Source: Acidobacterium sp.
GTDB lineage: Bacteria; Acidobacteriota; Terriglobia; Terriglobales; Acidobacteriaceae
Assembly: GCA_003131625.1 (NCBI GenBank)
Contig: PKVY01000139.1
Coordinates: 476 to 55,511 of the forward strand
Length of the DNA stretch: 55,036 bases
Direction: 5' to 3'
The notes under the pieces were generated by a model. It saw only the letters and a program-made list of their open reading frames with translations. It searched no databases and was not told where the DNA came from. Positions 4,461 to 46,465 of this stretch are shown here, in pieces (position 1 is the first letter of the stretch; each line of letters opens with the position of its first letter). The position numbers and the translations under genes were made by a program.

Positions 4461-4490
4461 AGGGTACAGGGTATAGGGTACAGGGTATAG
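4461..4490. repeat. Heptamer tandem repeat array, AGGGTAY x4
   Basis: Four consecutive 7-base units alternate AGGGTAC and AGGGTAT, starting 4 bases after the ctaB stop. If DUF420 translation began at GTG 4454 the array would be read as protein, which is unlikely. It is one of six arrays in the window with the same 7-base phase but different units. Confidence 0.85.
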
Positions 4491-4501
4491 AAACCGCCGA
4501 A

Positions 4502-5074
4502 ATGCCGACAGCAGCGACGAGTCCGAAACTGAGCCCGAGGCCGAAGCAGTCGATGTCGGCGCCCATAGCGGCGATCATCGGCGTGAGCGTGGCGGCAACG
4601 CTGTTTCTGTTCTGGCTGATTTATGTTCATCCAGCGTCGGACGCGGCGGCTGTGCGCTACACGTTCCTGCCGAATCTGAATGCGCTGCTGAACGGGTTGA
4701 GCGCCATTGCGCTGCTGATTGGCTTCTATTTCATCCGGACGCATCGTATTGCGCTGCATCGCGCCAGCATGATGACGGCTTTCGTCTTCAGCTCTCTTTT
4801 TCTGGTCTGCTACATTGCCAATCACGCGCTGCATGGCGACACGCTTTATCCGGTGCACAACCGCGTCTACTATGCCGCGTATCTGCCGATTCTGATCAGC
4901 CACATTGTGCTGGCGATTGTGGCGCTGCCCATCGTGCTGATCACGTTTTACCTGTCGCTGTCGCGGCGGTTCGCAGCGCATCGCAAGCTGGCGCGGTTCA
5001 CATTTCCGCTATGGCTCTATGTTTCGGTGACGGGCGTGGTGGTGCGCGTGATGCTGGTGGCGGCGCTGCGCTAG
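4502..5074 (+). CDS. DUF420 family membrane protein
   Basis: About 190 residues with five predicted helices, among them IAAIIGVSVAATLFLFWLIY, a stretch containing ALLNGLSAIALLIGFYFI, and a C-terminal helix ending in VRVMLVAALR. The pattern, with conserved histidines in the loops (RIALHRASMM, ANHALHG, SHIVLA), is that of DUF420, a family found beside cytochrome c oxidase genes and thought to help its assembly. ATG 4502 is preferred; ATG 4554 is also possible. The GTG at 4454 that overlaps the ctaB stop would force the heptamer repeat to be translated. The link to heme O synthase upstream supports a respiratory role. Confidence 0.82.
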   Translation: MPTAATSPKLSPRPKQSMSAPIAAIIGVSVAATLFLFWLIYVHPASDAAAVRYTFLPNLNALLNGLSAIALLIGFYFIRTHRIALHRASMMTAFVFSSLFLVCYIANHALHGDTLYPVHNRVYYAAYLPILISHIVLAIVALPIVLITFYLSLSRRFAAHRKLARFTFPLWLYVSVTGVVVRVMLVAALR

Positions 5075-5101
5075 AGGGCCGCGGGGCACGCCGGATATTC
5101 G

Positions 5102-5383
5102 ATGGCCGATAGATCAGAAATCGCAAACCGGGTGGAAGCCAGTGACGACGGAACGAGGTCGCTGTTGCGAACCGGCGGCTGGATGCTGGTGGCCGGCGTG
5201 CTGGCTGCGCTTCTGACCGCGACTGTCTTCGGCGGGATCAGCCGCCAGGGTCCGCACACCAACGCGGGATGGCTGTCGCTGATGGCGGCGCTGATGTGCC
5301 TGCCCTTTGGACTGATGCTGTTTGCCCTGGGCGCGGCGAAATGGCTGCGCAACCGGCGGATCGCGCGCACAAGCCAGCATTAG
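5102..5383 (+). CDS. Small two-helix membrane protein, unknown
   Basis: 93 residues. A polar N-terminus (about 25 residues) is followed by two hydrophobic helices, WMLVAGVLAALLTATVFGGI and LMAALMCLPFGLMLFALGAA, and a basic C-terminal tail (KWLRNRRIARTSQH). No domain is recognised. It lies 27 bases after the DUF420 gene on the same strand and may belong to the heme/oxidase assembly cluster, but that rests on position alone. Confidence 0.6.
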   Translation: MADRSEIANRVEASDDGTRSLLRTGGWMLVAGVLAALLTATVFGGISRQGPHTNAGWLSLMAALMCLPFGLMLFALGAAKWLRNRRIARTSQH

Positions 5384-5629
5384 CATTCGTTCGTGTAGCG
5401 CAGCGAGGTAACCGCCGTGGTTCGCAGACGTTCGCGAATCGGTGGCGCGCACCCGCCCGCCAGGATACGCTCGTGAACAGGACGGGACCGCGTATTGACC
5501 AAGAGCAGCTTTGCCGGGGGTCCCTGGTTCCTCAGCCGATCGCGACGAAAGCGCGCGATGCGGGTTCAAGGATAATGCTCTGAGAGCCGGGCCGCGCCTG
5601 GCTGCGTGCCCAGCAAGGAGAGATCTCTG

Positions 5630-6577
5630 ATGAAGACCACGGGACGATTCGCTGTACTGGCGGTGGTCGCCAGCTGCCTGTTGATCTCAACTGCGCGTGC
5701 GCAGTCGACGCCGCCGGCGCAGAACCAGCCACCGCAGCAGGATCAGGCTCAGGATCAAAACACCGGAGTGTCGCATCCTCCGGCGGATGACACGATCCAG
5801 GCGGACGAGGATGTTGCGCCGCCGGTTGTGGCTCCCAGGCCCAAACCGTCCGCAGCGATTCCGATGACGCCGGCGAAGCCGGCCGTTGTGGCGCCGCAGC
5901 CCGGCGATCCCGATTACGGGATGGTCACTTCGGCTCCCGGGACCACGACCGATGCGGCGTTGACCAGGCGTTCCTGGAATCCCGACGACGGCATGGTCAA
6001 CTATGTTCCGTCGGACCCGAATGAGTTGGCGGCGGGCACCAATATTCGCGTGCGCTTGTCGCAGGATCTCTCGACGACAGAAGCGCATCCTGGCGAGGCT
6101 TTTCGCGCGGTTGTGGACAGGGATGTGTCCAAGGAAGGGCGAGTGATCATCCCGGCGGGCGCGGAGCTGCGCGGCCACGTGGTTGGCGTGTCGCAGGGAC
6201 ATCACCTTGGCCCGCACGCGACCATTCGTCTCCGCCCGGAGATGGTGATGCTGCCAGATGGCACGGCGTATCACCTCTACGCGGAGGCGGTGCAGTCGAA
6301 GGCGCCCGGGACTCGCACCACGGACGAGGGCGGGATTGCAGCCAGCCCACACTATAAAAAGGACGCGATCGAGTACGGAGCGGGCACGGGCGCAGGCGCG
6401 GTCGCCGGCGGCGAGATTGCCGGCCCGGCGGGCGCGGGTGTGGGATCGCTGGTGGGCGCGGGTGTGGTGACGGCACACATGCTGATGGCGAAGCCCGCGG
6501 CAGCCAACCTGCCGCAGGGATCAATGCTGGTGTTCAGCCTGACGGAGCCGATGACGCTGACGCCGACCAAAAACTAG
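5630..6577 (+). CDS. Secreted protein with TrbI/VirB10-like C-terminal domain
   Basis: 315 residues. A signal peptide (KTTGRFAVLAVVASCLLIST, cleavage after ARAQ) comes first. A long Pro/Gln/Asp-rich linker runs to about residue 135 and contains two related segments, GDPDYGMVTSAPG and NPDDGMVNYVPS. The C-terminal domain has NIRVRLSQDLSTTEAHPGE, then GRVIIPAGAELRGHVVGV, which resembles the beta-rich VirB10/TrbI fold, and a Gly/Ala-rich helix of the glycine-zipper kind (about residues 245-280). No other conjugation genes are nearby, so a transfer role is unlikely; an envelope role is a guess. ATG 5630 is preached by AAGGAGAG upstream; GTG 5606 is an alternative. Confidence 0.6.
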   Translation: MKTTGRFAVLAVVASCLLISTARAQSTPPAQNQPPQQDQAQDQNTGVSHPPADDTIQADEDVAPPVVAPRPKPSAAIPMTPAKPAVVAPQPGDPDYGMVTSAPGTTTDAALTRRSWNPDDGMVNYVPSDPNELAAGTNIRVRLSQDLSTTEAHPGEAFRAVVDRDVSKEGRVIIPAGAELRGHVVGVSQGHHLGPHATIRLRPEMVMLPDGTAYHLYAEAVQSKAPGTRTTDEGGIAASPHYKKDAIEYGAGTGAGAVAGGEIAGPAGAGVGSLVGAGVVTAHMLMAKPAAANLPQGSMLVFSLTEPMTLTPTKN

Positions 6578-6639
6578 CCAGACTGCGAATCCCCGGAGCG
6601 GCGGCAGCCGACGCGATGAACGGGCAGTGTTTCCGCGAA

Positions 6640-6760
6640 GGGAGCATAGTTATCCGATGGTACGGATAAGCTATTACGTTTATCGATAAGTTACTATCTC
6701 GATGAATAAGCCCTCCATTACATAGGGATAAATGATCGATCCCGCAAGGTTACTTCTGGT
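6640..6760. other. AT-rich palindromic segment in non-coding DNA
   Basis: This stretch is clearly richer in A and T than its surroundings. It holds a TATCCG/CGGATA hairpin (6651-6668) and the perfect palindrome TTATCGATAA (6680-6689). No gene or mobile-element end is recognised. From 6578 to 6640 nothing is seen. Confidence 0.5.
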
Positions 6761-6803
6761 CCCGTCTGACGGTTGTTTTTCCGCATAGTGCGGCCCTGAG
6801 CTC

Positions 6804-6833
6804 TTGACAGTATTTTGGTACTGCCCCCATACT
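6804..6833 (+). promoter_or_regulatory. Strong sigma-70-type promoter
   Basis: A perfect TTGACA (6804-6809) is followed 18 bases later by CATACT (6828-6833). It points to the zinc-ribbon gene at 7098 and implies an untranslated leader of about 255 bases. The near-consensus -35 box is the best sigma-70-like site I found in the window. Confidence 0.7.
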
Positions 6834-6839
6834 CGCACC

Positions 6840-7097
6840 ATTGAAGCCTTGCAGAATGTAGGGTGGGCCTAACGTTGTTCTTACCCTTTCCCCGCACACA
6901 TAGATGGAACCGCACGCCGCTTTCAGGCGGCACTGATCACTGGTTGGAAATACGCTGAAGGGTTCAGCGGGCGAAAAAGGTAAGGATGCGGAGTTCCCTG
7001 GCTGACCGCACCCCTCCCCTCTTCCCTTTTCTGTCCTGAAAGCGGCGTGCGGCTTCACGCCCCAAAACTGCCGGTAACCGCTGAAGGGAGATACCCG
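6840..7097 (+). ncRNA. Putative structured leader RNA with long-range 18-bp stem
   Basis: CCGCACGCCGCTTTCAGG at 6910-6927 is perfectly complementary to 7035-7052, enclosing 107 bases. Inside lies a 7-bp hairpin, CGCTGAA-GGG-TTCAGCG (6953-6969), and a purine-rich strand (about 6970-6995) facing a pyrimidine-rich one (about 7014-7032). The left arm can instead fold locally as GCCGC-TTTCAG-GCGGC (6916-6931), so two exclusive folds exist. The stem ends 45 bases before the start codon at 7098. This looks like a regulatory leader or an independent small RNA; no known Rfam class is recognised by eye. Confidence 0.5.
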
Positions 7098-7370
7098 ATG
7101 GTGAACAACTGCTCGAACTCAGGGTGCGGCAAGCCCCTGCACTATCTGCGGGAAGGCCGGATTTTCATTTTCGACGCCTCCGTGGGCGCGGGTGAACCGG
7201 GCGCAAAGCGTTCGCGCCGCCTGGAGCACTACTGGCTCTGCGGAGGCTGCTCGGAAACCATGATGATGGTGCAGGACGGGCAGGGGAGGATCCGTATCAT
7301 GTCGAAACCAACGATCGCCATGGAGACGGAGGAAACTGCACCGGTCGTTGCCTCGATGCTGGCGTCCTAA
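7098..7370 (+). CDS. Small zinc-ribbon protein of acidobacterial type
   Basis: 90 residues. An N-terminal NNCSNSGCGKPLHYLREGR and a later LEHYWLCGGCSETMMM supply two pairs of cysteines spaced for one zinc site. The C-terminus is polar. Similar CGKPL-type short proteins are, to my knowledge, frequent and often multi-copy in Acidobacteria, with no assigned function. ATG 7098 has GGGAG 7 bases upstream; an upstream in-frame ATG at 7047 would lie inside the leader stem. The strong promoter and the folded leader suggest high, regulated expression. Confidence 0.7.
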   Translation: MVNNCSNSGCGKPLHYLREGRIFIFDASVGAGEPGAKRSRRLEHYWLCGGCSETMMMVQDGQGRIRIMSKPTIAMETEETAPVVASMLAS

Positions 7371-7453
7371 AGCAAGACAGAGGACATAATTTCGCAGGGC
7401 GGAGTCTCCGCTTGCGCACCGTTGCCGATTTCCGGCAATCTGGTGGCGGTCCG

Positions 7454-8320
7454 ATGATGCAACGCCTCTACGTTCCGCCGGCGCCGCTGGCTTCTTTCAT
7501 CCGATGCTTCTGGTATTGGGAAGGCACGCCCCATCACCCCAGCGCGCCAACAGAGGGGGCACCGGGGGCCCCGACGCCACAACCCCACGCTCGCGAGCGG
7601 CTGCTGCCGAATGGCGAGGCGTCGATTGTCTTCAATCTGCGCGATGAGGAGATGCGTCTCTACGACGCGGACGATCCGAGCCGATTTGTGTCGTGCGGGC
7701 TGGCCGGGCTTACCGGCGCGCGGACCCACTGCTTTGCAATCGATACGGCGGCGGAGGAGTGGGTGGTGGGGATCCAGTTCCGGCCGGGTGGGACGTTTCC
7801 GTTCTTCCGCGAGCCAGCGGGGGAAGTGGCGAATCGTTCGATGCCTCTGGAAGACCTGTGGCGGGACGCAGCAGGCGAGATTCGCGAGCAGTTGCTGGCG
7901 GCGTGTTCGGCGGATGCGATGTTCGCGGTTCTTGAGCGAGCCCTGATGGCGCAACTGGTGCGGGGGCTGGAACTGCATCCCGCGATCGAATTTGCCCGAG
8001 GTCATATTTGCCGCGCGCCCCAGGTCGCGACGGTGTCGGGCGTGATGGAGAGCATTGGGCTGAGCCAGAGGCGGTTCATCGAGCTATTCCGGGAGCAGGT
8101 GGGGCTGACGCCGAAGGCGTTTTGCCGGGTGCGGCGTTTCCAGCGGGTGCTGGAGGCGGTGCATCGACGGAAATCGGTGGACTGGGCGCAGGTGGCGCTG
8201 GATGGCGGCTATTACGACCAGGCCCATTTCATTCACGATTTTCAGGGCTTTTCGGGGCTCACGCCTGCGGCGTATCTGGCGCTGGCGACGGAACACCTGA
8301 ATCACGTGCCGATGGCGTAA
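7454..8320 (+). CDS. AraC-family transcriptional regulator
   Basis: 288 residues. The N-terminal sensing domain begins RLYVPPAPLASFIRCFWYWE, characteristic of the DUF6597-type AraC proteins, and includes FRPGGTFPFF near residues 112-121. The C-terminal AraC DNA-binding domain has two helix-turn-helix units: IGLSQRRFIELFREQVGLTP and, ahead of the end, ALDGGYYDQAHFIHDFQGF. ATG 7454 (or 7457) follows a GGTGG; a TTG at 7412 would add 14 residues. It lies upstream of a PhnB-like protein and a YjbR protein on the same strand, a common soil-bacterial grouping. The inducer is unknown. Confidence 0.85.
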   Translation: MMQRLYVPPAPLASFIRCFWYWEGTPHHPSAPTEGAPGAPTPQPHARERLLPNGEASIVFNLRDEEMRLYDADDPSRFVSCGLAGLTGARTHCFAIDTAAEEWVVGIQFRPGGTFPFFREPAGEVANRSMPLEDLWRDAAGEIREQLLAACSADAMFAVLERALMAQLVRGLELHPAIEFARGHICRAPQVATVSGVMESIGLSQRRFIELFREQVGLTPKAFCRVRRFQRVLEAVHRRKSVDWAQVALDGGYYDQAHFIHDFQGFSGLTPAAYLALATEHLNHVPMA

Positions 8321-8399
8321 CGCGCAGGAGCCCCTTCAAATTTTTACAATCCTCCCTGAGCGGCGCAGGGCCACAATGGTTCTCATCCCAGGAGGGATT

Positions 8400-8861
8400 A
8401 TGTCTCCAGTGAAAGCAGTTCCCGAGGGCTACCACAACGTCCAGCCCTATCTGCATATTCGCGGGGCCGCGCAGGCCATCGAGTTTTATAAAAAGGCATT
8501 CGGAGCGACCGAGATTATGCGCATGCCACAGCCGGACGGCCGCCTCGGCCACGCCGAAATCCGGTTTGGCGACTCCGTGGTGATGCTCGCCGATGAGCAC
8601 CCCGAGCGAGGCATCCATGGACCGGAGCACTACGGGGGTGCGCCCATGACGCTGATGTTCTACACGGAGGACTGCGACGGGATTTACCGGAAGGCGCTCG
8701 GGGCCGGTGCGAAGAGCGTGCGGGAGCCCACGGATCAGTTCTATGGCGATCGGATGGCGGGGGTCGAGGATCCGTTCGGATTCCAGTGGTACATCGCGAC
8801 GCATATTAAGGATGTGTCTCCGGAGGAGATGAATGCGGCGATGGCGGCGCAGAAACCGTGA
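8400..8861 (+). CDS. PhnB-like glyoxalase/bleomycin-resistance fold protein
   Basis: 153 residues with two vicinal-oxygen-chelate repeats: NVQPYLHIRGAAQAIEFYKK (about 15-34) and MTLMFYTEDCDGIYRKALG (about 81-99). The conserved ends FGDSVVMLADE and WYIATHIKDVSPEE match PhnB/YdcE-like proteins. A strong AGGAGG lies 8 bases before ATG 8400. The metal site is only partly visible, so glyoxalase activity cannot be claimed. It overlaps the following YjbR gene (GTGA at 8858-8861). Confidence 0.85.
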   Translation: MSPVKAVPEGYHNVQPYLHIRGAAQAIEFYKKAFGATEIMRMPQPDGRLGHAEIRFGDSVVMLADEHPERGIHGPEHYGGAPMTLMFYTEDCDGIYRKALGAGAKSVREPTDQFYGDRMAGVEDPFGFQWYIATHIKDVSPEEMNAAMAAQKP

Positions 8862-9238
8862 CGACCGCCGCAGAGTTTCGCCGTCTGGCACTGAGCCTGC
8901 CGGAAGCGGAGGAGCGCGAGCACATGCATCATCCGGATTTCCGCGTGGGCGGGAAAATTTTCGCGACTCTGGGCTATCCGGACAAGAACTGGGGGATGGT
9001 GAAGCTGTTCCCGGATCAGCAGGCGGAGTTCGTTGCGGCGAACCCGAAGATGTTCGCGCCGGTGAAGGGCGGGTGGGGCAAGCAGGGCGGCACCAATGTT
9101 CTGCTGAAGGAGGCGAGCCAGGAGCGGGTGCGAGAGGCGCTGACCGCGGCGTGGCGGAATACGGCGGGGAAGGGGCTGGTTGCAGCAGAGGTCGCGCCGG
9201 TTCCGAAGCCACGGCCCGCAAAGAAACGCCGAGGCTGA
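8858..9238 (+). CDS. MmcQ/YjbR family protein
   Basis: 126 residues starting at GTG 8858, translationally coupled to the glyoxalase-fold gene. FRRLALSLPEAEEREHMHHP, FRVGGKIFATLG, a VKLFPDQQAEF segment and a final helix (VREALTAAWRNTA) are typical of the CyaY-like YjbR fold, annotated as possible DNA-binding. A basic tail of Pro/Lys/Arg follows. Function is unknown in the family. It often sits next to PhnB-like genes, as here. Confidence 0.85.
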   Translation: MTTAAEFRRLALSLPEAEEREHMHHPDFRVGGKIFATLGYPDKNWGMVKLFPDQQAEFVAANPKMFAPVKGGWGKQGGTNVLLKEASQERVREALTAAWRNTAGKGLVAAEVAPVPKPRPAKKRRG

Positions 9239-9243
9239 GTCGG

Positions 9244-9271
9244 ATGGTCGCGTTTAGATGGACGCGTTTAG
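9244..9271. repeat. 14-base direct repeat in heptamer phase
   Basis: ATGGTCG CGTTTAG is followed at once by ATGGACG CGTTTAG, that is, two 14-mers made of two 7-base units with one mismatch. The array lies between the convergent ends of the YjbR gene and recR and contains the recR stop codon. Confidence 0.75.
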
Positions 9272-9867
9272 ATCGTATGACGGCCTTCGAGGGCGCGGGT
9301 CATGGTGACTTCGTCGGCGTACTCAATGTCGCTGCCGGCGGGAACGCCGGTGGCGATGCGGGTGATGCGCACCTGAGAGGATCGCAACAAGTCGGCCAGC
9401 CAGATTGCGGTGGCTTCCCCTTCGACGGTGGGCGAGGTGGCGAGGATAATTTCGTCGAGTTCGCCACGGTTGGCGCGCGCGACGAGATTGCCGGTGCGCA
9501 GATGCTCGGGTCCGACGCCGTGGAGGGGCGAGAGCGTGCCGTGCAGGACGTGGAAGACGCCGTTCCAGGAGCGGGTCTTTTCGATGGTGCCGATATTGGT
9601 TGGCTCCTCGACGACGCACACCAGGCGCTGATTGCGGGTGGGGCTGGCGCAGTAGAGGCAGGGATCGACGTCGGTGATGTTGTTGCAGATGGAACAGAGG
9701 CGGAGGCGCTCTTTGACGTCGCGGATTGCGGAGGAAAGAGCTACAGCATCCTCGTCATCGGAGCGCAGGATGTGAAAGGCGAGGCGCTGCGCGGATTTGT
9801 TGCCGATGCCGGGCAGCTTGCGCAGCTCTTCGATGAGGCGCGCCATGGGTTCCGCGAATCGTGACAA
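9268..9867 (-). CDS. recR: Recombination mediator protein RecR
   Basis: 199 residues, the normal RecR length. RecR works with RecO (and RecF) to load RecA at gaps. The helix-hairpin-helix LRKLPGIGNKSAQRLAFHIL is near residues 16-35, the four-cysteine zinc finger (CSICNNITDVDPCLYC) near 58-73, and the Toprim domain (VCVVEEPTNIGTIEKTRSW, then ATSPTVEGEATAIWLADLL) beyond residue 80. No dnaX or YbaB gene, the usual neighbours, is next to it in this window. Confidence 0.96.
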   Translation of the reverse strand: MSRFAEPMARLIEELRKLPGIGNKSAQRLAFHILRSDDEDAVALSSAIRDVKERLRLCSICNNITDVDPCLYCASPTRNQRLVCVVEEPTNIGTIEKTRSWNGVFHVLHGTLSPLHGVGPEHLRTGNLVARANRGELDEIILATSPTVEGEATAIWLADLLRSSQVRITRIATGVPAGSDIEYADEVTMTRALEGRHTI

Positions 9868-9879
9868 AGAAGGGCCTCT

Positions 9880-10974
9880 CTAACCCGCGGCGGCGACGGA
9901 ATGGGTGGGTGCTGGCTGGGCGGAGCGGCCGGCGCGCACCGCTTGAGCGAGTTCGGTGAGCAAAGTTCGGGTTTCATCCCAGCCGATGCAGGCGTCGGTG
10001 ATGCTCTGGCCGTAAACCAGCTCGCGGCCAGGGACAAGCTTCTGCGCTCCGGCGACGAGGTTGCTTTCGAGCATAACGCCGACGATGCGGCGGTCGCCGC
10101 CGGCGATCTGAGCGGCAACGTCGCGGCACACGGCGGGCTGGCGGGTGTGGTCTTTGCGGCTGTTGGCGTGGCTGCAGTCGATCATGACGCGCGGTGTCTG
10201 GCCGGATTCTTCGAGGAGGCGGCAGGTCTGGTCCACCGAGGCGGGGTCATAATTGACGGTCTCGCGTCCGCCGCGGAGGATGATGTGGCAATCGGCATTG
10301 CCGGCGGTGAAGAGAATCGCCGACTGGCCGTATTTCGAGTGGCCGAGAAAGGTGTGCGGATGACCGGCGGAGAGGATGGCCTCGATGGCGATCTGCACAT
10401 TGCCGGAGGTGCCGTTCTTGAAGCCGACCGGGCAGGAGAGGCCCGAGGCGAGCTGGCGATGGCCCTGGCTCTCGGTGGTGCGCGCGCCGATGGCGCCCCA
10501 GCTGACCAGCTCGGCGACGTACTGGGGCGAGATCATGTCAAGGAATTCGGTGCCGGCGGGCATGCCCATCTCGGCGAGGTCGAGCAGGAGGCGGCGAGCG
10601 AGGCGGAGGCCATCGTTGATGCGGTAGGACTCGTCGAGGAACGGGTCGTTGATGAGGCCCTTCCAGCCGAGGGTGGTGCGCGGTTTCTCAAAGTAGACGC
10701 GCATGACGATGCGGAGCTCGGGGGCGAGTTCGGTCATGATTTCTTTGAGGCGGCGGGCATAGTCGCGGGCGGCGGTGGGATCGTGGATGGAGCAGGGCCC
10801 GGCGACGACCAGCAACCGGTGGTCGCGCTGGTGCAGGATGTCCACGATCTCGCGGCGCGCATGGAAGACGGTAGCGGAGGCCGTCTCAGTGACGGGCATC
10901 TCCTCTTCCAGGAAGACCGGAGGCAGAACAACTTTTGTAGACCTGATACGCAGGTCGTCCGTGCGATAGAACAT
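9880..10974 (-). CDS. aroG: 3-deoxy-7-phosphoheptulonate synthase, class I-alpha
   Basis: Condenses phosphoenolpyruvate with erythrose 4-phosphate, the first step of aromatic amino-acid synthesis. 364 residues. VVAGPCSIHDPTAARDYARR carries the metal-binding Cys. RVYFEKPRTTLGWKGLINDP and, later, ARTTESQGHRQLASGLS form the substrate site; DCSHANSRKDHTRQ carries the metal His. The residue pattern is that of the AroG/F/H feedback-regulated class. It lies 12 bases after recR on the same strand. A second DAHP synthase of a different subclass is present at 51.7 kb, in DNA of different origin. Confidence 0.94.
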   Translation of the reverse strand: MFYRTDDLRIRSTKVVLPPVFLEEEMPVTETASATVFHARREIVDILHQRDHRLLVVAGPCSIHDPTAARDYARRLKEIMTELAPELRIVMRVYFEKPRTTLGWKGLINDPFLDESYRINDGLRLARRLLLDLAEMGMPAGTEFLDMISPQYVAELVSWGAIGARTTESQGHRQLASGLSCPVGFKNGTSGNVQIAIEAILSAGHPHTFLGHSKYGQSAILFTAGNADCHIILRGGRETVNYDPASVDQTCRLLEESGQTPRVMIDCSHANSRKDHTRQPAVCRDVAAQIAGGDRRIVGVMLESNLVAGAQKLVPGRELVYGQSITDACIGWDETRTLLTELAQAVRAGRSAQPAPTHSVAAAG

Positions 10975-11037
10975 GGGCTTTCCTCAGTGTAAGCGAGGGG
11001 CCGATGTCGCGGTTGCGCGGCCCTCTATGATCGAGGA

Positions 11038-11406
11038 ATGAGGCTGCTGGCTGCGCTGGTGCTGGCGTTCCATCTTGTTTGGATCCTGTGGGTGATCTTT
11101 GGGGCGGTGTGGACGCGCGGGCGCAAATGGCTGACCGGGTTTCATATCGCGTCGATTGTTTGGGGCATGATCGCTGAAGCGGGTCCCTGGCCGTGCCCGT
11201 TGACGATCCTGGAAGACCACCTGGAAGCCGGGGCCGGCATTCAGCCCTATAACGGCGGATGTCTTGTGCATTATCTGGACGCGATCATGTATCCGAACCT
11301 ATCGGTCAGGGTGATCATTGGTTTCGCGGTCGCGGTATGCGCGGCGAACCTGCTGATTTATGTTTGGCGGCTGGTGCAGGCGCTGCGGGCGCGGGCAGCG
11401 AGCTAG
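11038..11406 (+). CDS. DUF2784 family membrane protein
   Basis: 122 residues with three or four helices (LLAALVLAFHLVWILWVIFG, WLTGFHIASIVWGMIAEAG, VIIGFAVAVCAANLLIYVW). The conserved PCPLTILEDHLE segment between helices 2 and 3 identifies DUF2784. Function unknown. Its stop codon TAG shares the palindrome CTAG (11403-11406) with the stop of the convergent gene. Confidence 0.82.
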   Translation: MRLLAALVLAFHLVWILWVIFGAVWTRGRKWLTGFHIASIVWGMIAEAGPWPCPLTILEDHLEAGAGIQPYNGGCLVHYLDAIMYPNLSVRVIIGFAVAVCAANLLIYVWRLVQALRARAAS

Positions 11407-11942
11407 CCGGGTCCGGTGCCGGTCTTGCCGCGCTCCTTCTTGTGGATGTCGAAATAGACGTCCTGAGAGATCGACATCTGGCGCGCCTCATCGGTGGCGC
11501 TTTGCGCGGCTTCGACGGCGGTCTTATGGGGAAAGTCGTAGCTGGGGTCGGAGCCCACGGCATTGAGAGCTGCCGGCCATTTTGCGGTATCGGCGACAAG
11601 TTCCCTGAGGGATTTGCGAATATCGGCGTGGGCCGCATCGTAAGTGTCGAGGTTGTCCTGGAGCTCGTCGCAGAGGTGGGTGAATTCATCAAACCTGGCG
11701 CGGACCTGAGCTTTTTCGTTCGCGGACTTTCCGGGGCCTGCCAGTTGTTTGATTGCGTCGAGACGCTCGTCGATGAACTTCATATAGAGCTTGATGCGCT
11801 CGTTGGGATTGGTCTTGTTATCGCGAATCTGCTGGACCTCGTCCTCGGTGAGGGGATCGCTGGAGTCCTGGGCGCGCAGCCTGGGGGCGAATCCGGCAGT
11901 GAACACAAGGAAGAGGAGGAAGCAGGCGATCCGGCGTGACAT
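11403..11942 (-). CDS. Secreted helical protein, unknown
   Basis: 179 residues. A signal peptide (RRIACFLLFLVFTAGFAPRL, cleavage after RAQ) precedes a charged, all-helical body (LTEDEVQQIRDNKTNPNERI, IKLYMKFIDERLDAIKQLAG). The first ATG with a sensible signal peptide is 11942; the frame continues upstream without recognisable sequence. No domain is recognised. Proteins of this kind occur in Acidobacteria as hypotheticals. Confidence 0.6.
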   Translation of the reverse strand: MSRRIACFLLFLVFTAGFAPRLRAQDSSDPLTEDEVQQIRDNKTNPNERIKLYMKFIDERLDAIKQLAGPGKSANEKAQVRARFDEFTHLCDELQDNLDTYDAAHADIRKSLRELVADTAKWPAALNAVGSDPSYDFPHKTAVEAAQSATDEARQMSISQDVYFDIHKKERGKTGTGPG

Positions 11943-14654: not shown

Positions 14655-16284
<1,630 letters not shown>

Positions 16285-17053: not shown

Positions 17054-18682
17054 GTGCCTGATTCGAAGAAGCCGGTTGTACTGACGATTTTGGATGGATG
17101 GGGCTATCGCCCGCAGATCGAAAACAACGCGATCGCGCTGGCGCGCAAGCCGGTGTACGACAAGCTGCTCGAGGAGTATCCGAACACGCTGCTGCATGCG
17201 TCGGATCACTTTGTGGGGCTGCCGGATGGGCAGATGGGCAACAGCGAAGTGGGACATCTGAACATCGGCGCGGGGCGCATCGTGCAGATGGACATCACCC
17301 GCATCGACGCGCTGATCGCGAATGGGGAATTCTTCAGGCATCCGACGATTGTCGAGGCTTTGCAGAAAGCGCGGAAGACACAGCTGCATCTGTTTGGGCT
17401 GGTGTCGGACGGCGGCGTGCACTCGCATCAGGAGCATTTGTATGCGCTGCTGAAGGCTGCGAAGCAGCAAGGCGTCGAGAGGGTCTTCGTGCATGCCTTT
17501 ATGGATGGACGCGACACGCTGCCGACCAGCGGAGCGGGGTATCTGGCGGCGCTTGAACAGAAGATGCGCGAGTTTGGCGGGAAACTGGCCAGCGTCTCGG
17601 GGCGCTATTACGCGATGGATCGCGACCGGCGATGGGAGCGCGAGAAGAAGGCCTTCGACGCGATGGTGAAGGGGCAAGCCGAGGGCGGCGCTTACAAGGA
17701 TGCGGTTGCGAGGGTGAAGGAGTCGTACAACAACGGCACGACGGACGAGTTTATTGTGCCGTTCGTGGTTACAGATGAGCCCGGGAAGCCGAACGGGCTG
17801 ATCCGCGACGAGGACGTGTGCCTCATGTTCAATTTCCGCGCGGATCGGGCGCGTCAGATTACGCGGGTTCTGGCGCGGAACAGCGGGCTGAGCAAAGAGG
17901 CGGGGCGCGAGCTGCCGTCGTGGGAGGAACTGGACGCGACGATTCCGCGCAGCGAGATTCCGAGCAGGCTGCACTACGTGTGTATGACGCAGTACGACAA
18001 GAATTTCACGCTGCCGATGGTCATCCGTCCGGAGTCGATGGAGAACCTGCTGGCGGATACGATGGCGCAGGCGAATTTGCGGAACCTGCGCGTGGCGGAG
18101 ACGGAAAAGTACGCGCACGTGACGTATTTCTTCAACGGCGGGATCGAGAAGCCGTTTCCTGGGGAGGATCGGATTCTGATCCCATCACAGAAAGTGGCGA
18201 CGTACGATCTTGCACCGGAGATGTCGGCGGCGGGGATCGCGGACACGGTGGTGAAGGCGGTGAACGACCGGGCATTCGATGTGGTGGTGGTGAACTTCGC
18301 GAATGCAGATATGGTGGGGCACTCGGGACGACTGGAGCCGACCATCAAAGCGGTCGAGACGGTGGACGCGTGCCTGGGGCGGATTTATCAGGCGATGAAA
18401 CAGCGAGGCGGTGGGGCGTGGCTGATCACCGCGGATCACGGCAACGCGGAGCTGATGGTCGATCCCGTCACGGGCGGGCCGCACACGGCGCACACGACGA
18501 ATCCGGTGCCGTTCATCTTTGTGAGCGAGGATGCGAAGCAGTATTCGATGCGTCCGGATGGATCGCTGCGCGATATTTCGCCAACGATTCTGGGGCTGCT
18601 CAACCTTGCGGAGCCGCAGCAGATGACGGGCGGGGATCTGCGGGTTAAAAGCAGGCAGCAGGCACCAGGCAGTAGGGAGTAG
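17054..18682 (+). CDS. gpmI: 2,3-bisphosphoglycerate-independent phosphoglycerate mutase
   Basis: Interconverts 3- and 2-phosphoglycerate with two Mn ions; alkaline-phosphatase superfamily. The start [20 protein letters not shown] holds the first metal Asp. [20 protein letters not shown] holds the phosphorylated Ser; [20 protein letters not shown] and [14 protein letters not shown] form the substrate site. [20 protein letters not shown] and [15 protein letters not shown] supply the second metal site. GTG 17054 has GAGGAG 6 bases upstream. 542 residues is long for the family; the last 11 ([11 protein letters not shown]) come from a heptamer repeat array. A strong terminator follows. Confidence 0.96.
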
Positions 18683-18685
18683 AAA
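18651..18685. repeat. Heptamer array GCAGGCA-like, inside the gpmI 3' end
   Basis: Five units in strict 7-base phase: GCAGGCA, GCAGGCA, CCAGGCA, GTAGGGA, GTAGAAA. The array supplies the last codons and the stop of gpmI, and reads differently in each frame because 7 is not a multiple of 3. Confidence 0.8.
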
Positions 18686-30075: not shown

Positions 30076-30138
30076 CAGGGATTAAGAATCAGGGATTAGA
30101 GATTGGAGGCCGGTAATCAGGGATCAGTGAGCAGAGTG
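30076..30138. repeat. Heptamer array built on CAGGGAT
   Basis: Nine consecutive 7-base units: CAGGGAT, TAAGAAT, CAGGGAT, TAGAGAT, TGGAGGC, CGGTAAT, CAGGGAT, CAGTGAG, CAGAGTG. The exact unit returns three times at multiples of seven. It fills most of the 99-base gap between two minus-strand genes. Confidence 0.8.
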
Positions 30139-35224: not shown

Positions 35225-35234
35225 CGCGGACGAC

Positions 35235-36113: not shown

Positions 36114-36116
36114 GCG

Positions 36117-37567: not shown

Positions 37568-37611
37568 CCGCAGACGGGTCGAAAACGGATCGCGACGAAA
37601 GCGCCGTAGCC

Positions 37612-41160: not shown

Positions 41161-43903
41161 CTGGATCCTCGTCGTCGTTGCCCGGGACGCCGATGGGCGC
41201 GAGATTGAGTTCGGCGATGCGGCAGAGAGCCTGGAAATGGCACTGGTCGCAGGCATGCGGTCGGGGATCGACGGCGGCTTGGCCCGCCAGGAATTGTTCG
41301 GCGAGCTTTTCGAGGGCGCGGGCCCATTCGTCCCGCGTGGAATCGGAATAAGGATCGGTGAAGAGAACCGTTCTTGTGCCCTGATCGGCCAGGAGCTGCG
41401 AACGCGCGTCACGTACGCGCCCTTCAAATCCGGTTTCACCAGCGCGAATGCGGGCAAAGAGAATGCCGCTCAGGTTCTCGACATTGCCGTAGGCAGCGTA
41501 AAGGGGAAGCTGCGGATCGGAGGGGCGCTCGCCTTGCCAGGCGGCGGGCGAGACGCGACCGGTCTTGTAATCCAGAAGCAGGCGGCTGCCATCGGCGAGG
41601 AGGTCGATGCGATCGGCGCGAAGATTGAGGCGCAGGTCGCCGATGTGGACGTCGTCGAGGCGTTGTTCGCAGGCTTCAACGGTGAAGGGCTGACGGTTGG
41701 CTTCGATCCCGAGCCATTCCTCAATGCGCGTCAGGAGGCGGCGCTTTTCGGCCGCGAGGCAGCCCTGCTGCCATGGGTCGGCAGGAGAGGAGCCGAATCG
41801 GGCAGTAAAGACCGCATCGATATGTGCGTCGAGAATGCCGGGAAGTGTGTTTGTAACAATGGCAGTGACAAGATCGTCACGGGTGCGGATGGGTACCGGT
41901 TCAGACACGGAAAACAGGCGCTGCATCACCTCGTGGAGCAGTCTGCCTTGTGTGGCTGGGCTGAGCCCTCGTTCTGTGTCCTCGAGCGGCGAGGCACGGA
42001 GACGCTTTGCGGCAAAGGCCTGAAACGGGCATGCAGCCTGCCGCTTGAGAACATCTGCACCGCCGGCGTTTTGTTCGCGGGGCCATGGCAGCGCGCCGGA
42101 AACGTCGGCGATTTCTTCAAGAGACGCGATGGGAGGCGGCTGAGGTGCGGGGCCGAAGGTACTGGTGGATTGCGGACACGCATCGCTCGGGAACAGTACG
42201 GAAATGAGAGGCGAGGGGCGGAGTTCAGCGTCCTTGTCACGCTGAGCGAAGCTGAAGACGATCCGCGGGGCAGCGGCGAGCAGGCGCGAGGTCACGGTTT
42301 GGGCAAGGTTCCAGTCGTCGTCGGGAGTGGCATGGGGCATGGCGAACTGTCGCTGGAGGGCGGGCGGAAGCAGCGGATGGAAGCGGCCGCGCTGGGGCCA
42401 TGCGGCATCATCGGTGCCCATAAACCAGATGGCATCGAATTGCTGGCCGGAGGATTCGAAGGGGCCCATGATCTGGATGGGCGCGTCGTGGGACTCCGGA
42501 GCGAAGATGGTTTCCCGGCTCTGGCGCTCGAGAAGAGCGATGAAATCGTCGTAGTTATATCGGGCGCCGTCGAAATCGAGCAGGGCGATTTCGTCGAGGA
42601 GGCGTTGCCAGCGCTGGAGGGCCTGATACTGCACGGAGTCAGCTGTGCGTGGGCCGGGCCAGCCGACCCGATCGAGCAGGAGAGGGGCGAGATCGGTCCA
42701 TGCAGACAGTTGGCGGGAACCGTCGCGGATCCTGTTCGATTCCACGGCGCGCAGGAGATCGCCGAAATGGACGTGAAGAGTGCGCAGGGCGGGGAGTCCG
42801 GCGAGCGCATTGCGCCAGGTTACGAGGGAGCGTTCCGGCGATAGCAAACCGTAGCGGCGCTGACGGGCGTCATGCTGGGCGAGAGCAAGATGATTTGTAA
42901 CGGTGTCGGCGACGAATCCCGAGAGCATGAGCCAGGAAATCTCTTCTTCCTGGAGAGGCGCGGTGATCCAGCGCAGGAGCAGAAGAGCTGCGCGAATGGC
43001 GGGAATATCGGCGAGAGGCTGTCCGAGCGAGAATTCCCAAGGCATGAGGGACGAGGGGCGGCGGACGTCCTCGCTCGCGGGCATGAGAATGCGGCGGAAG
43101 ATGCGATCAATTTCGCGGCGCGCGTCGGCGATGCCAGGAACAATGACGGCGATGCGGGTGGTGGGGTTCTCAACCAGCAGATTGCGCGCCCAGCCTGCGC
43201 AGGTGGCGATTTCGTCACGCCGATCGTTGGCGACGATCCAGGAGCGGTTGGCATCCTGCTGGGCAAGCGGCGGTTCGGAACCGGCTTCGGTAACGGTGAT
43301 GCCATGAGATTCGAGCGCTGCAAGAAGGTCGCGCTGGGCGGGCGTGATGCGATCGAAGCCGACGAGGAGGAGTTCGGGCGGCAGCTTGAAATCGGCGGCA
43401 TTGCCGAGTAGCGAAGCCAGAGTCGATTCGAGGTCGCTGGCGCTGAGCCATCCGTGGCGGGCGCATTCGCGCTCGAAGCTGGCAGCCCAATGGCGGAAGC
43501 GCTCGGCATCAGTTTGGGCGTCGTTCGAACCCCAGGACTGCTGGCGGGATGAGTGGGCCTTCCAGGCGGAGAGCAGGGACCAGGCCTCCATGGCGAGAGC
43601 GGCCATCAGTTCCGGCGATATGACGAGGGCAGCGTCGTCGCGCTGGGCGCGGGTCCAGAGGGTGCGCTCCTGCAACGACGTGAGAAGAACGGGTGCGCCA
43701 TCGGTCGAGAAAACGTGATCGCGCCAGAGGTTGCGGAGCCAGGAATCCCAGTCGTAGATCGATGGCGTGGGCCAGACGGTATGGCCTGCGGCGCGCTGCG
43801 CTCCCGCGAATTGGAGGTGCAGAGCACGCGCGGCGCGGGGGCTGGCAGCGACGATGGTGGCACCGCGCCGGAGCGCATCAGCGATGGGCCGGGCCAATGT
43901 CAT
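41153..43903 (-). CDS. AddB-like PD-(D/E)xK nuclease/inactivated helicase
   Basis: 916 residues, partner of the AddA-like helicase. The N-terminus (ATIVAASPRAARALHLQFAG, WPTPSIYDWDSWL) is the degenerate helicase type found in AddB-like 'probable DNA repair' proteins; SQQFDAIWFMGTDDAAWP follows. The C-terminal nuclease has GRLLHEVMQRLFSV, LRADRIDLLADGSRLLLDYK with the catalytic Asp and Lys, and QLPLYAAYGNVENL. Four cysteines, one in RQAACPFQAFAA and three in HACDQCHFQALC (C-x2-C-x5-C), match the 4Fe-4S staple of AddB. It is divergent from the SCO gene with only 31 bases between starts. Confidence 0.86.
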   Translation of the reverse strand: MTLARPIADALRRGATIVAASPRAARALHLQFAGAQRAAGHTVWPTPSIYDWDSWLRNLWRDHVFSTDGAPVLLTSLQERTLWTRAQRDDAALVISPELMAALAMEAWSLLSAWKAHSSRQQSWGSNDAQTDAERFRHWAASFERECARHGWLSASDLESTLASLLGNAADFKLPPELLLVGFDRITPAQRDLLAALESHGITVTEAGSEPPLAQQDANRSWIVANDRRDEIATCAGWARNLLVENPTTRIAVIVPGIADARREIDRIFRRILMPASEDVRRPSSLMPWEFSLGQPLADIPAIRAALLLLRWITAPLQEEEISWLMLSGFVADTVTNHLALAQHDARQRRYGLLSPERSLVTWRNALAGLPALRTLHVHFGDLLRAVESNRIRDGSRQLSAWTDLAPLLLDRVGWPGPRTADSVQYQALQRWQRLLDEIALLDFDGARYNYDDFIALLERQSRETIFAPESHDAPIQIMGPFESSGQQFDAIWFMGTDDAAWPQRGRFHPLLPPALQRQFAMPHATPDDDWNLAQTVTSRLLAAAPRIVFSFAQRDKDAELRPSPLISVLFPSDACPQSTSTFGPAPQPPPIASLEEIADVSGALPWPREQNAGGADVLKRQAACPFQAFAAKRLRASPLEDTERGLSPATQGRLLHEVMQRLFSVSEPVPIRTRDDLVTAIVTNTLPGILDAHIDAVFTARFGSSPADPWQQGCLAAEKRRLLTRIEEWLGIEANRQPFTVEACEQRLDDVHIGDLRLNLRADRIDLLADGSRLLLDYKTGRVSPAAWQGERPSDPQLPLYAAYGNVENLSGILFARIRAGETGFEGRVRDARSQLLADQGTRTVLFTDPYSDSTRDEWARALEKLAEQFLAGQAAVDPRPHACDQCHFQALCRIAELNLAPIGVPGNDDEDPDD

Positions 43904-43934
43904 AGGGGATCTTCATCCAAGTGTAAACTGGCGG

Positions 43935-44837
43935 GTGAAGCCTCTTCGCGCGCACATTTCCACCGCTGCAATTCTGGCGGTGATTGTGTTTTTGGGGGGT
44001 TGTCACGGTACGGAGAAGACGAGCAGCACGACGGAACAACAGGCGGCAGGAAAGAAGTATCACATCCGTGGAATTGTGGTGTCGAGCAATGCGAAGACTG
44101 GCGCGGTGACGGTGGATACGGACGCGATTCCCGGATATATGGATGCGATGACGATGCCCTACACGCTGGCGCAGCCGAACATTGCGAGCGAGCTGCATCC
44201 CGGCGACACGATTACGGCGACGCTGACCGTTTCGGCGGACGCGGATGTGCTGGATGAGATTGTTGTCGTGGCGCAGGCGAAGCCCGATTACAAACCGGCG
44301 GTGACGTACAACGACCTGGAGCCCGGCGAAGCGGTTCCGGATTTTCGTTTTCTGAATCAGAGCGGACGCACGGTGCGGCTGGGGCAATGGCACGGGAAGG
44401 CGGTGCTGCTGACGTTCATCTATACGCGGTGCCCGCTGCCGAACTTTTGTGTGCGGATGAGCCGGAATTTTGCCGAGATGGACAAGGCGCTGGAGAAGGA
44501 TCCAAAGCTGTATGCGAAGACGCATCTGCTGAGCGTGAGCTTCGATCCGAAGTACGACACGCCGCAGGTGCTGCGCAGTTATGGCGGCGCGTATACGGGG
44601 AACTTCACAAAGGAGACGTTCGGGCACTGGGATTTTGCTGCGCCGACGGAGCAGGATCTGCCGAAGGTGCTGCAATTTTTCGATGTGGGCGCAACCCCGG
44701 AGAAAGACGGGACGATCACGCATTCGCTTTCGACAGTGGTGATTGGGCCGGACGGAAAAATCTACAAGTGGTATTCCGGTAATGAGTGGACGCCGGAGCA
44801 GATGCTCGAGGATGTGCGGAAGCTGGCGGGTTCGTGA
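43935..44837 (+). CDS. SCO1/SenC family lipoprotein with N-terminal CusF-like domain
   Basis: 300 residues from GTG 43935. The signal AAILAVIVFLGGC ends in a lipobox (LGGC), so it is membrane-anchored. Residues about 35-115 form a CusF-like copper domain (HIRGIVVSSNAKTGAVTVDT, then GYMDAMTMPYTLA with the M-x-M pair, and LHPGDTITATLTVSADADVL). The rest is a SCO/redoxin domain: the copper Cys pair in YTRCPLPNFC and the distal His in THSLSTVVIGPDGKIYKW are present. SCO proteins deliver copper to the CuA site of cytochrome oxidase. The fusion would put copper capture and delivery in one chain. A GntR-like operator follows its stop. Confidence 0.88.
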   Translation: MKPLRAHISTAAILAVIVFLGGCHGTEKTSSTTEQQAAGKKYHIRGIVVSSNAKTGAVTVDTDAIPGYMDAMTMPYTLAQPNIASELHPGDTITATLTVSADADVLDEIVVVAQAKPDYKPAVTYNDLEPGEAVPDFRFLNQSGRTVRLGQWHGKAVLLTFIYTRCPLPNFCVRMSRNFAEMDKALEKDPKLYAKTHLLSVSFDPKYDTPQVLRSYGGAYTGNFTKETFGHWDFAAPTEQDLPKVLQFFDVGATPEKDGTITHSLSTVVIGPDGKIYKWYSGNEWTPEQMLEDVRKLAGS

Positions 44838-44840
44838 GGG

Positions 44841-44870
44841 TATGATGGTGCAGGAAGTGGTCTGACCACT
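44841..44870 (+). promoter_or_regulatory. Promoter and GntR/FadR-type operator of the sugar kinase
   Basis: A -10-like TATGAT (44841-44846) lies 3 bases after the SCO stop. AGTGGT-CTG-ACCACT (44856-44870) follows at the expected start of transcription and matches the FadR-subfamily consensus TNGTNNNACNA in full. Repression by a GntR-family regulator that responds to a sugar acid is inferred; no such gene is in the window. Confidence 0.6.
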
Positions 44871-44891
44871 ACAGCAAGAGGTGAATGAACG

Positions 44892-45980
44892 ATGGGAAGC
44901 GCTCTGACGATCCGCAAAGAGGGTGAACTGGATTTCTTGTCGCTGGGTGCGCTGGTGCATCGGCTGGATCCGGGGATCATTCCATTTCGTAAGGCGACGG
45001 AATGCGCGATCCACGTGAGCGGCGGCGAGTTTAACGTTGCAGCGAACCTGGCGGATTGTTTTGGGATGAAGACGGCGATTGCTTCGGCGATGGTGGATTA
45101 TCCGATCGGCGACCTGATCGCGGAGCGGGTACGGGCGATGGGTGTGCGGCCGTACTACCGGCACTTCAAGCACGATGGTGTGAGTGGGCCGAACATGGCG
45201 ACGGTGTACAGCGATCGCGGATTCGGAGTGCGCGCGCCTGTGGTGTTCTACAACCGATGCAATGAGGCGGCGGCGCAACTGCAGCCGGGAGACTTCGACT
45301 GGAAAGGGATTTTTGCGGGCGGCGTGCGCTGGGCGCACAGCGGGGGCATTTTCGCGGCGTTGTCGCCGACGACGGCACGACTGGCCGTCGAGATGATGAC
45401 GGCCGCGAAGAACGCGGGCGCGGTGACGTCGTTCGACCTGAATTTCCGCGAGAAGCTGTGGAATGTGAGTGGCGGAGCCGATCGCGCGGTCGAGGTGATC
45501 GCACGCATCGTAGAACACGTCGACGTGCTGGTGGGCAACGAAGAGGATTTGCAGAAGGGATTGGGGATCGAAGGGCCAAAAGTCGAAGACAAGACGAAAT
45601 CGAAGCTCGATCCCAGCGCGTTCTTCGGGATGATCGACAGGGTGGTGAAAAAGCATCCACAGGTGAAGGTGGTGGCGACGACCTTGCGCGAGGTGCACTC
45701 GACGAACCGGCACAGCTGGAGCGCGGTGGCCTGGGTGGATGGGAAGACTTACATGGCGCCAACCGCGGATTTGGATGTTTACGATCGCGTGGGCGGCGGA
45801 GATGGATTCGCGGCGGGATTCTTCTACGGATTGCTGACGGGCGCCGATCCGGAAGAAGCGGTGAAGCTTGGATGGGCGCATGGGGCGCTGCTGACAACAT
45901 TTCCGGGAGACACGACCATGGCAACGCTGGATCAGGTGCGGGCGTTTGCGAAGGGTGGATCGGCGCGGATACAAAGATAG
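44892..45980 (+). CDS. PfkB-family sugar kinase (2-keto-3-deoxygluconate kinase-like)
   Basis: 362 residues, ribokinase fold. The N-terminal motif ECAIHVSGGEFNVAANLADC and the C-terminal ATP/catalytic motif DRVGGGDGFAAGFFYGLL (with the catalytic Asp) are complete; GGGD replaces the usual GAGD, as in several KDG kinases. VTSFDLNFREKLW and VLVGNEEDL match KdgK enzymes that phosphorylate 2-keto-3-deoxygluconate from uronate breakdown. An operator of the GntR type directly upstream agrees with sugar-acid control. Fructokinase or another hexose kinase cannot be excluded. Confidence 0.82.
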   Translation: MGSALTIRKEGELDFLSLGALVHRLDPGIIPFRKATECAIHVSGGEFNVAANLADCFGMKTAIASAMVDYPIGDLIAERVRAMGVRPYYRHFKHDGVSGPNMATVYSDRGFGVRAPVVFYNRCNEAAAQLQPGDFDWKGIFAGGVRWAHSGGIFAALSPTTARLAVEMMTAAKNAGAVTSFDLNFREKLWNVSGGADRAVEVIARIVEHVDVLVGNEEDLQKGLGIEGPKVEDKTKSKLDPSAFFGMIDRVVKKHPQVKVVATTLREVHSTNRHSWSAVAWVDGKTYMAPTADLDVYDRVGGGDGFAAGFFYGLLTGADPEEAVKLGWAHGALLTTFPGDTTMATLDQVRAFAKGGSARIQR

Positions 45981-46052
45981 CGCCCAGGGAGTAATCCCCA
46001 ACCTGGCTGCGTTTCTGGCGGTCTCCAGTAGACTGGTGGGACTGGAGGACGC

Positions 46053-46439
46053 ATGGCCAAAGTGACAATTCTGTTCGGCCTGCTGCTGATCATGCTGGGC
46101 GTGATCGGGTATGTGGGGACAGGGTGGAAAGCGCCGACCGCGTTGATTCCCACTTATGTGGGAATTGTGTTCACCATCCTGGGTTTCCTGGCGCGACGGG
46201 GAAGCCCGAAGCGGCGCATGCTGATGATGCACATCGCCGTGACGCTGGGGCTGCTGGGATTTCTGGCGACGGCGAAATCGATCTGGGACTTCATTCAGAT
46301 GGAACGAGGCCATATGTTTGCGCGGCCGATTGCGGTCGAGGACAAAGCCGTGATGTCGACCATGCTGCTGATTTATGTGCTCCTTTGCGTGCGTTCGTTC
46401 ATCAAGGCAAGAAGACAGCCGGTAGCCGGTAGCCAGTAG
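46053..46439 (+). CDS. Four-helix membrane protein, unknown
   Basis: 128 residues with four helices: VTILFGLLLIMLGVIGYVG, ALIPTYVGIVFTILGFLA, IAVTLGLLGFLATAKSIWDF and a C-terminal one (VMSTMLLIYVLLCVRSFI). The pattern suits small acidobacterial and planctomycete membrane proteins of unknown role. The last residues (QPVAGSQ) and the stop are written by a heptamer repeat array. An ABC exporter gene follows. Confidence 0.65.
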   Translation: MAKVTILFGLLLIMLGVIGYVGTGWKAPTALIPTYVGIVFTILGFLARRGSPKRRMLMMHIAVTLGLLGFLATAKSIWDFIQMERGHMFARPIAVEDKAVMSTMLLIYVLLCVRSFIKARRQPVAGSQ

Positions 46440-46465
46440 CTGGTTGCTTGTAGCGGGGTAGCGTG
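46417..46465. repeat. Heptamer array AGCCGGT-like
   Basis: Seven units in 7-base phase: AGCCGGT, AGCCGGT, AGCCAGT, AGCTGGT, TGCTTGT, AGCGGGG, TAGCGTG, each diverging further along the array. It spans the stop codon of the membrane protein and runs to the start of the ABC exporter. Confidence 0.8.

Follow-up and report, generated by a model that had tools for sequence, protein, structure and literature searches.

The window analyzed here is a 55-kb stretch (C11:476-55511) of a draft Acidobacterium sp. assembly (the source genome; 148 contigs, 5.39 Mb), in which short tandem arrays of 7-bp units, or heptamer arrays, are scattered over gene ends and intergenic gaps. The arrays are built of tandem 7-mers drawn from a limited list of words common to the genus. 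Genes were delineated with a simple in-house caller, and a Pfam match was obtained for 18 of the 20 window genes checked. The initial annotation, made from the sequence alone, had listed six arrays in strict heptamer phase. Every letter it quoted was found in the sequence, and the lag-7 identity of each array was ranked against all windows of the same length in the 55 kb, as well as against 2000 shuffles. Four of the six proved to be period-7 arrays, a fifth is indistinguishable from chance, and the sixth is a different repeat. The arrays and the doubtful case are as follows:

4460..4490, + strand: four units of CAGGGTA, the first base alternating between C and T; dominant word family, 2 bp past the stop of the UbiA gene
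14750..14770, + strand: doubtful; two units of the dominant word, AGGGTAC and AGCGTAC (339 of 18339 windows equal or higher)
18650..18682, + strand: GCAGGCA array of five units, decaying toward its 3' end
30076..30138, + strand: decayed array of nine units with CAGGGAT exact three times, under the run-score threshold
46417..46465, + strand: AGCCGGT array of seven units, decaying toward its 3' end

The lag-7 identity equals 0.87 for the array at 4461-4490 (0 of 18336 windows equal or higher), 0.79 at 18651-18685 (5 of 18334), 0.67 at 46417-46465 (4 of 18329), and 0.59 at 30076-30138 (6 of 18325), values that none of the 2000 shuffles reached. The units at 14750-14770, where no period-7 run reaches a score of ≥11, are possibly a remnant of a dominant-word array. 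The repeat at 9243..9273 (+ strand), between the YjbR and RecR genes, was rejected as a heptamer array. It is a 14-bp tandem duplication (at 9244-9271, lag-7 identity of 0.19 and lag-14 identity of 0.93), and the orthologous gap of the closest relative, G001, holds a single copy of the 14-mer by eye.

The described placement in gene ends or gaps holds for the listed arrays. The CAGGGTA array lies between the UbiA gene (3462-4457) and a DUF420 gene (4553-5074), and the decayed array occupies the gap from the start of an asparaginase gene (30054, - strand) to the stop of an M28 peptidase gene (30154, - strand). The other two overlap the 3' ends of reading frames: the phosphoglycerate mutase frame (17054-18682) takes its final codons and its TAG stop from the GCAGGCA array, and a TAG at 46437-46439 within the AGCCGGT array terminates a frame with no Pfam match (46053-46439), followed by an ABC transporter gene (46487-48286). 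The remark that arrays are absent after 48.3 kb agrees with the lack of any period-7 run at a score of ≥11 beyond position 46440. The units had been described as array-specific, which is true of neighboring arrays but not of the genome, where the same units recur elsewhere.

Period 7, unit words, and placement

At a run score of ≥12, the window contains three period-7 runs (average over 20 dinucleotide shuffles, 0), with no runs at periods 4 to 6 and 8 to 13 and two at period 14. Across 455 kb of the source genome, 48 lag-7 runs with a score of ≥10 were detected against 1.0 in three shuffles, and periods 4, 5, 8, 10, and 11 yielded between 0 and 4 runs (2 for period 8). Periods 14 and 21 (39 and 27 runs) are echoes of period 7, and the 15, 8, 13, and 11 runs at periods 6, 9, 12, and 15, respectively, are put down to codon periodicity, which is visible in coding DNA. 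A period-7 character of intergenic DNA at large was rejected, the lag-7 value of array-free gaps being only slightly raised (0.277 versus ~0.265).

In total, 126 arrays with a score of ≥12 were collected from 1.232 Mb of the source genome. An 855-kb part holds 67 of these, 62 of which lie at most half within a called coding sequence (CDS); the second part (377 kb) was chosen mostly for known CAGGGTR matches, and its array density is that of a nonrandom sample. A 21-mer pattern allowing ≤3 mismatches has 106+110 matches in the source genome and none for its reversed control. Likewise, the pattern CAGGGTRCAGGGTRCAGGG, with one mismatch, matches 249 times in the source genome (reversed controls, 0) and is present in 11 of the 12 genomes of the genus and, across the family, in 31 of 299 genomes, representing 11 of 71 genera.

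Stretches of 20 other family genomes (355 kb) contain 15 period-7 runs at a score of ≥12, versus 0 in five shuffles. These runs are confined to seven stretches and are mostly built of other words; two of the 20 stretches were picked for a known match and account for 2 of the 15 runs, and one consists entirely of N. The initial annotation had proposed a scattered family resembling the short tandemly repeated repetitive (STRR) heptamers, a proposal that depended on period 7 being enriched in relatives, and enrichment over other periods was found both in the source genome and in the 20 family genomes. G005, which belongs to the same genus and is rated 100% complete, has no period-7 run at a score of ≥12 in 240 kb, where approximately 19 are expected at the source-genome rate; by eye, some of its gaps hold heptamer-like remnants. 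In G017, from another genus, period 7 is clear, with 16 arrays in 420 kb. No paper on heptamer arrays of this type in Acidobacteria was found in open-literature listings; the accessible part of PMC4060949 includes a survey table that takes in Acidobacteria.

Word families were obtained by greedy clustering of the 126 units at one mismatch, with 100 random draws of intergenic 7-mers as a control. The largest family, CAGGGTR, accounts for 45 of the 126 arrays (random draws, ≤8), and the top three families together account for 69 (random draws, ≤20). The trinucleotide YAG is present in 107 of the 126 unit words, compared to 20% of random 7-mers. In addition, 54 of 69 arrays of relatives carry a word from a source-genome family having at least two arrays. 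Four units are found in 44 of the 126 arrays, five in 31, and three in 19, under a score cutoff that removes short arrays. A G3 quadruplex sequence motif occurs in 46 arrays, including 35 of the 45 CAGGGTR arrays, and an A-run at the 3' end is weak (16 of 102 versus 5.3%).

The orientation of the arrays was compared with the GC skew computed over 10 kb to either side, which stands in for replication direction. The arrays have their G-rich strand on the chromosome strand that the local skew marks as richer in G. CAGGGTR arrays run with the skew in 24 of 25 cases in the first sample and 19 of 20 in the second (43 of 45 in total), versus 195 of 304 lone CAGGGT copies outside arrays (p = 1e-6). 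For 108 of the 126 arrays (≤1 mismatch from one of nine named words and |skew| >0.05), orientation was assigned by unit and not by G content; 99 of these run with the skew and 9 against it, and the G/C-neutral word CAGCGTT runs with it in seven cases and against it in one. Arrays of relatives with a G excess give 24 with versus 1 against, an orientation by G content that is partly circular. Where both flanking genes oppose the skew, 14 of 15 CAGGGTR arrays still follow it, as do 10 of 12 other arrays (oriented by G content).

The gene for ribosomal protein L2 lies on the + strand of contig C125, in what we take, from gene order, to be the S10 region. Its neighbors are also on the + strand, the local skew is ~+0.22, and the arrays are mostly on the + strand. 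Because L2 and its neighbors read along the G-rich strand and ribosomal operons are usually codirectional with replication, this arrangement points to the G-rich strand as the leading strand, i.e., the lagging-strand template. Averaged over 20-kb stretches, |GC skew| amounts to 0.125 in the source genome, 0.111 in G003, 0.046 in the array-less G005, and 0.055 in G017; among these four genomes, array abundance may track skew strength.

Relative to genes, the arrays follow an edge rule. Among the 61 of 67 arrays lying outside CDSs with two neighbors, the median distance to the CDS edge is 13 bp at the 5' end of the G-rich strand and 145 bp at its 3' end. In this first sample, 52 arrays are nearer to a CDS edge at the 5' end and 9 at the 3' end; the second sample (57 of 59 arrays) gives 42 versus 15, for a source-genome total of 94 versus 24. 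Relatives show 31 versus 6 (37 of 41 arrays), counts that stem partly from orthologous sites and are not fully independent. When array-free gaps are represented by their G-richest 28-mer as a control, the numbers are 119 and 120. The association with gene ends suggested initially needs amending: arrays lie close to a CDS edge, start or stop alike, that faces the 5' end of their G-rich strand. Among the arrays listed with a 5' distance from -12 to 14 bp, the edge is a stop in 42 and a start in 19. Of the 19 listed start-edge arrays, 15 are situated 1 to 6 bp ahead of the called start codon (e.g., L023:14826-14857), a spacing that leaves no space there for a usual ribosome-binding site.

Word exchange at orthologous gaps

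Thirty-five gaps of the source genome were matched to gaps of relatives, yielding 140 pairs in which arrays were called at a score of ≥10. In G001, whose flanks are 93% identical, an array is found in 5 of 5 array gaps versus 1 of 24 array-free gaps (p = 5e-5), and in four of the five the word differs by two or more changes. Gaps of this closest relative thus retain the array while the word is exchanged. Over all relatives, 15 of 31 array gaps and 7 of 109 array-free gaps carry an array (p = 4e-7, with nonindependent pairs), and the word differs in 12 of the 15 retained array gaps. Past the UbiA stop, for example, four CAGGGTA units in the source genome correspond to four CAGTGAT-like units in G001 and to eight to nine units of GAAGCTG/GAAGCCA in G008. 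Inspection by eye of the site after phosphoglycerate mutase, which is outside the 140-pair table, revealed GCAGGCA in the source genome, an ACAGGGT-like word in G001, a GGGAACA-like word in G008, and no array in G003; the array itself furnishes the stop codon in the source genome and G001.

Several gaps carry successive arrays of differing words. At C125:4112, the stop is followed by a TTAGGGA array in the source genome, and in G001 by a CAGTGAT array, an AGCCGGT array, and then a TTAGGGA array with the flank common to both genomes. At C125:3541, arrays with a score of ≥10 are present in G001, G003, G004, and G011, and weaker ones can be discerned by eye in the source genome and G008; the gaps of G005, G006, and G010 are long and have no scored array. 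G009 has no array at this site, and its stop leads directly into GGATTAGAGAGCATGCC, a motif lying beyond the array in the other genomes. Compared with the array-bearing versions, this indicates that arrays can be acquired, or lost, cleanly between the stop codon and the downstream sequence.

A general hairpin or terminator role was rejected, as inverted partners are overall not above swapped-flank controls; only 6 of 65 arrays have a partner that exceeds each of its 15 swapped controls (overall p = 0.21). Clear inverted pairs do exist at single gaps. The last called gap of C125 (L241:16571-16720) and its orthologs contain inverted arrays that could form long hairpins, and the word varies among the source genome, G003, G009, and G010, yet is equal on both arms; the pairs were scored in G003 and G010 and judged by eye in the source genome and G009.

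Other repeats and neighbors were observed alongside the arrays. Ribosomal-region gaps of G002, G003, G008, and G010 (L264, L254, L256, and L252) display, by eye, a second repeat style of ~14 to 15 bases that is AAGCGGTTAGCT-like. Within the window, positions 7535-7577 and 1350-1389 have 84 to 94% matches in several genomes of the genus at places off the colinear contigs and are perhaps other dispersed repeats. Of the 80 kept matches to the DAHP synthase gene (9880-10974), most are proteobacterial, making horizontal transfer possible. The three best named matches, a Terriglobia MAG, a Granulicella, and a subdivision-1 MAG, point weakly to an acidobacterial source; the three acidobacterial loci among the 80 have no arrays at a score of ≥12.

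Related repeats and origin of the arrays

The closest published kind is that of the G-rich heptamers of Xanthomonas and Nostoc (Rehm et al. 2015, PMC4692102). According to the accessible text of that paper, these repeats (GGGNATC and GGGGA(T/C)T) are dispersed and mostly intergenic, obey the edge rule, occur in inverted pairs as well, prefer four units, and can form G-quadruplexes from four G-tracts. The edge rule is hence already known, having been reported for Xanthomonas, where the repeats lie 28 versus 160 nucleotides from the open reading frame (ORF), whatever its direction, and have no leading- or lagging-strand preference. The arrays described here are likewise G-rich, dispersed tandem heptamers mostly outside CDSs, with the ORF closer to the 5' than to the 3' end of their G-rich strand, whichever way it runs. 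However, they are not a plain member of this kind, because neither the unit type nor the absent strand preference is shared. Unlike in Xanthomonas, 99 of 108 arrays follow the GC skew, and, whereas the accessible text describes one unit type studied per genome, there are many words here, with exchange at sites, stacking, and YAG in most units. A search for three GGGNATC units with ≤1 mismatch, which covered GGGNATC and not GGGGA(T/C)T as such, returned 0 matches in the source genome. Across the phylum, 8 of 119 genomes were positive, and the reversed control matched in 7. Among these phylum genomes, G388, of another family, has 90 GGGNATC-array matches versus 5 reversed, the listed ones falling on both strands (listed contig of at least 6.4 Mb), and G381 has matches only to the reversed pattern (21), perhaps representing another word.

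Calothrix has three STRR heptanucleotide words (cited in PMC4692102, accessible text), and the presence of several words per genome makes the arrays similar to the cyanobacterial STRRs in this respect. The TAACTGA direct repeats of Beggiatoaceae (MacGregor 2015, PMC4679880) are, in the accessible part of that source, a single word located mostly just upstream of starts. They are also dispersed intergenic heptamers but, as far as that part describes them, consist of one word that is not G-rich, unlike the arrays of the source genome. Repetitive extragenic palindromic (REP) elements, tied to the Y1 transposase (the REP-associated tyrosine transposase, RAYT), and bacterial interspersed mosaic elements (BIMEs) are short intergenic repeats at gene ends as well. 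The arrays share this location, but REPs are palindromic, whereas the arrays are tandem 7-mers, and PF01797 is found in all 12 genus genomes whether or not they carry arrays. Contingency repeats of phase variation are located within or ahead of surface or adaptive genes; the genes named beside arrays in the window and one ribosomal region are UbiA, phosphoglycerate mutase, and L2 with its neighbors.

Tentatively, and with slightly less than an even chance of being right, we favor the explanation that the arrays form a dispersed, actively renewed intergenic family that works like the Xanthomonas and Nostoc repeats in placement and edge rule, with slippage and template switching on the lagging strand as the proposed mechanism. 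During lagging-strand synthesis, the nascent end would slip or switch template, within or between arrays, and the recurring YAG could serve as the microhomology for switching. Units would be copied in from another array and then multiplied, new units would enter at the 5' (CDS-side) end and push older ones outward, and spread into the CDS would be halted solely by selection against insertions there. The common words and the word exchange point to copying between arrays, and the edge rule and layering point to growth at one end. Since placement and orientation follow the chromosome strand and the CDS limits and not gene direction, a role in one transcript would be hard to maintain; most likely, the arrays are by-products, either selfish or neutral, rather than regulatory elements.

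Several observations weigh against this explanation. The mechanism is inferred from sequence patterns, and the assignment of the leading strand derives from skew and a single ribosomal region. An origin flip at dnaA was considered and rejected: the dnaA contig has no DnaA boxes, and its skew change is weak and in the wrong sense for an origin. The word GCAGGCT runs once with the skew and three times against it. In G017, the skew relation is weak over the 420 kb and the edge rule is missing (5 versus 7), so the strand lock and the edge rule are not universal. The unit-by-unit decay proposed initially is significant in one of three samples, with cleaner 5' halves in 25 versus 9 arrays, but 10 versus 11 and 19 versus 11 (p = 0.26) in the others. 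Relatives other than G001 keep arrays less (10 of 26 pairs versus 6 of 85 for array-free gaps), and the stacked arrays of G001 could have been gained by that genome or lost from the source genome. Furthermore, quadruplex stalling cannot be general, because AGCCGGT and CAGTGAT have no GGG and only 46 of the 126 arrays carry the motif.

Purely local slippage, in which a chance seed at each site is multiplied by polymerase slippage and period 7 is set by the polymerase footprint, is an unlikely alternative; the footprint idea is cited in the accessible text of Rehm et al. 2015 (PMC4692102). It would match the preference for period 7 across the sampled family, mostly in other words, and the finding that arrays do not follow the sole mobile-enzyme family examined. 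By itself it is disfavored by words recurring far above random draws (45 of 126 versus ≤8), their wholesale exchange at orthologous sites with ~93% identical flanks, and the adjoining stacks of unrelated words. The retention of sites between species, the inverted pairs with matching species-specific words at some gaps (such as C125 16571-16720 in the source genome, G003, G009, and G010, partly by eye), and the quadruplex motif in about one-third of arrays are consistent with a functional element of the untranslated region (terminator, mRNA end, translation signal, or G-quadruplex) selected for position while its sequence drifts. Such a function is quite unlikely nonetheless, as orientation tracks skew and not the gene (14 of 15), so that the transcript bears either the G-rich or the C-rich form, inverted partners seldom beat their controls (6 of 65), and G005 is devoid of period-7 runs at a score of ≥12 in 240 kb.

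IS200/IS605 elements insert into the lagging-strand template, and a transposase-like enzyme that pastes array cassettes into this template would explain the strand lock, the empty site alongside array-bearing ones, and the dispersal of the same words. We regard such a mobile single-strand element as improbable: no conserved ends were noticed except YAG and the weak 3' A-run, and Y1 transposase genes (PF01797) are present in all 12 genus genomes (1 to 6 matches), including the array-less G005. A tie between Y1 transposase and the arrays is unsupported, the genes being present irrespective of arrays in a search limited to Y1 among transposase families. A dedicated replication-strand-dependent process that writes heptamer cassettes at CDS edges, the newest beside the gene, with stratified word layers that differ between close species, is equally improbable. 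Finally, skew-locked, mostly G-rich, and dispersed arrays recall the polarity signals that FtsK reads (KOPS, FtsK-orienting polar sequences). A role as chromosome polarity signals for such a DNA translocase is very improbable, given the many different words and the absence of arrays from 240 kb of G005, and it predicts neither the edge rule nor the word exchange.

Heptamer repeats are known in several bacteria, and their period of 7, spread, and odd placement are unexplained in the literature covered. This genus offers fixed sites that change words at ~7% flank divergence, a lock to GC skew, ribosomal sites with and without arrays, and an array-less relative (240 kb; rated 100% complete). Taken together, these features make the origin of the repeats testable by resequencing and gene-content comparison.

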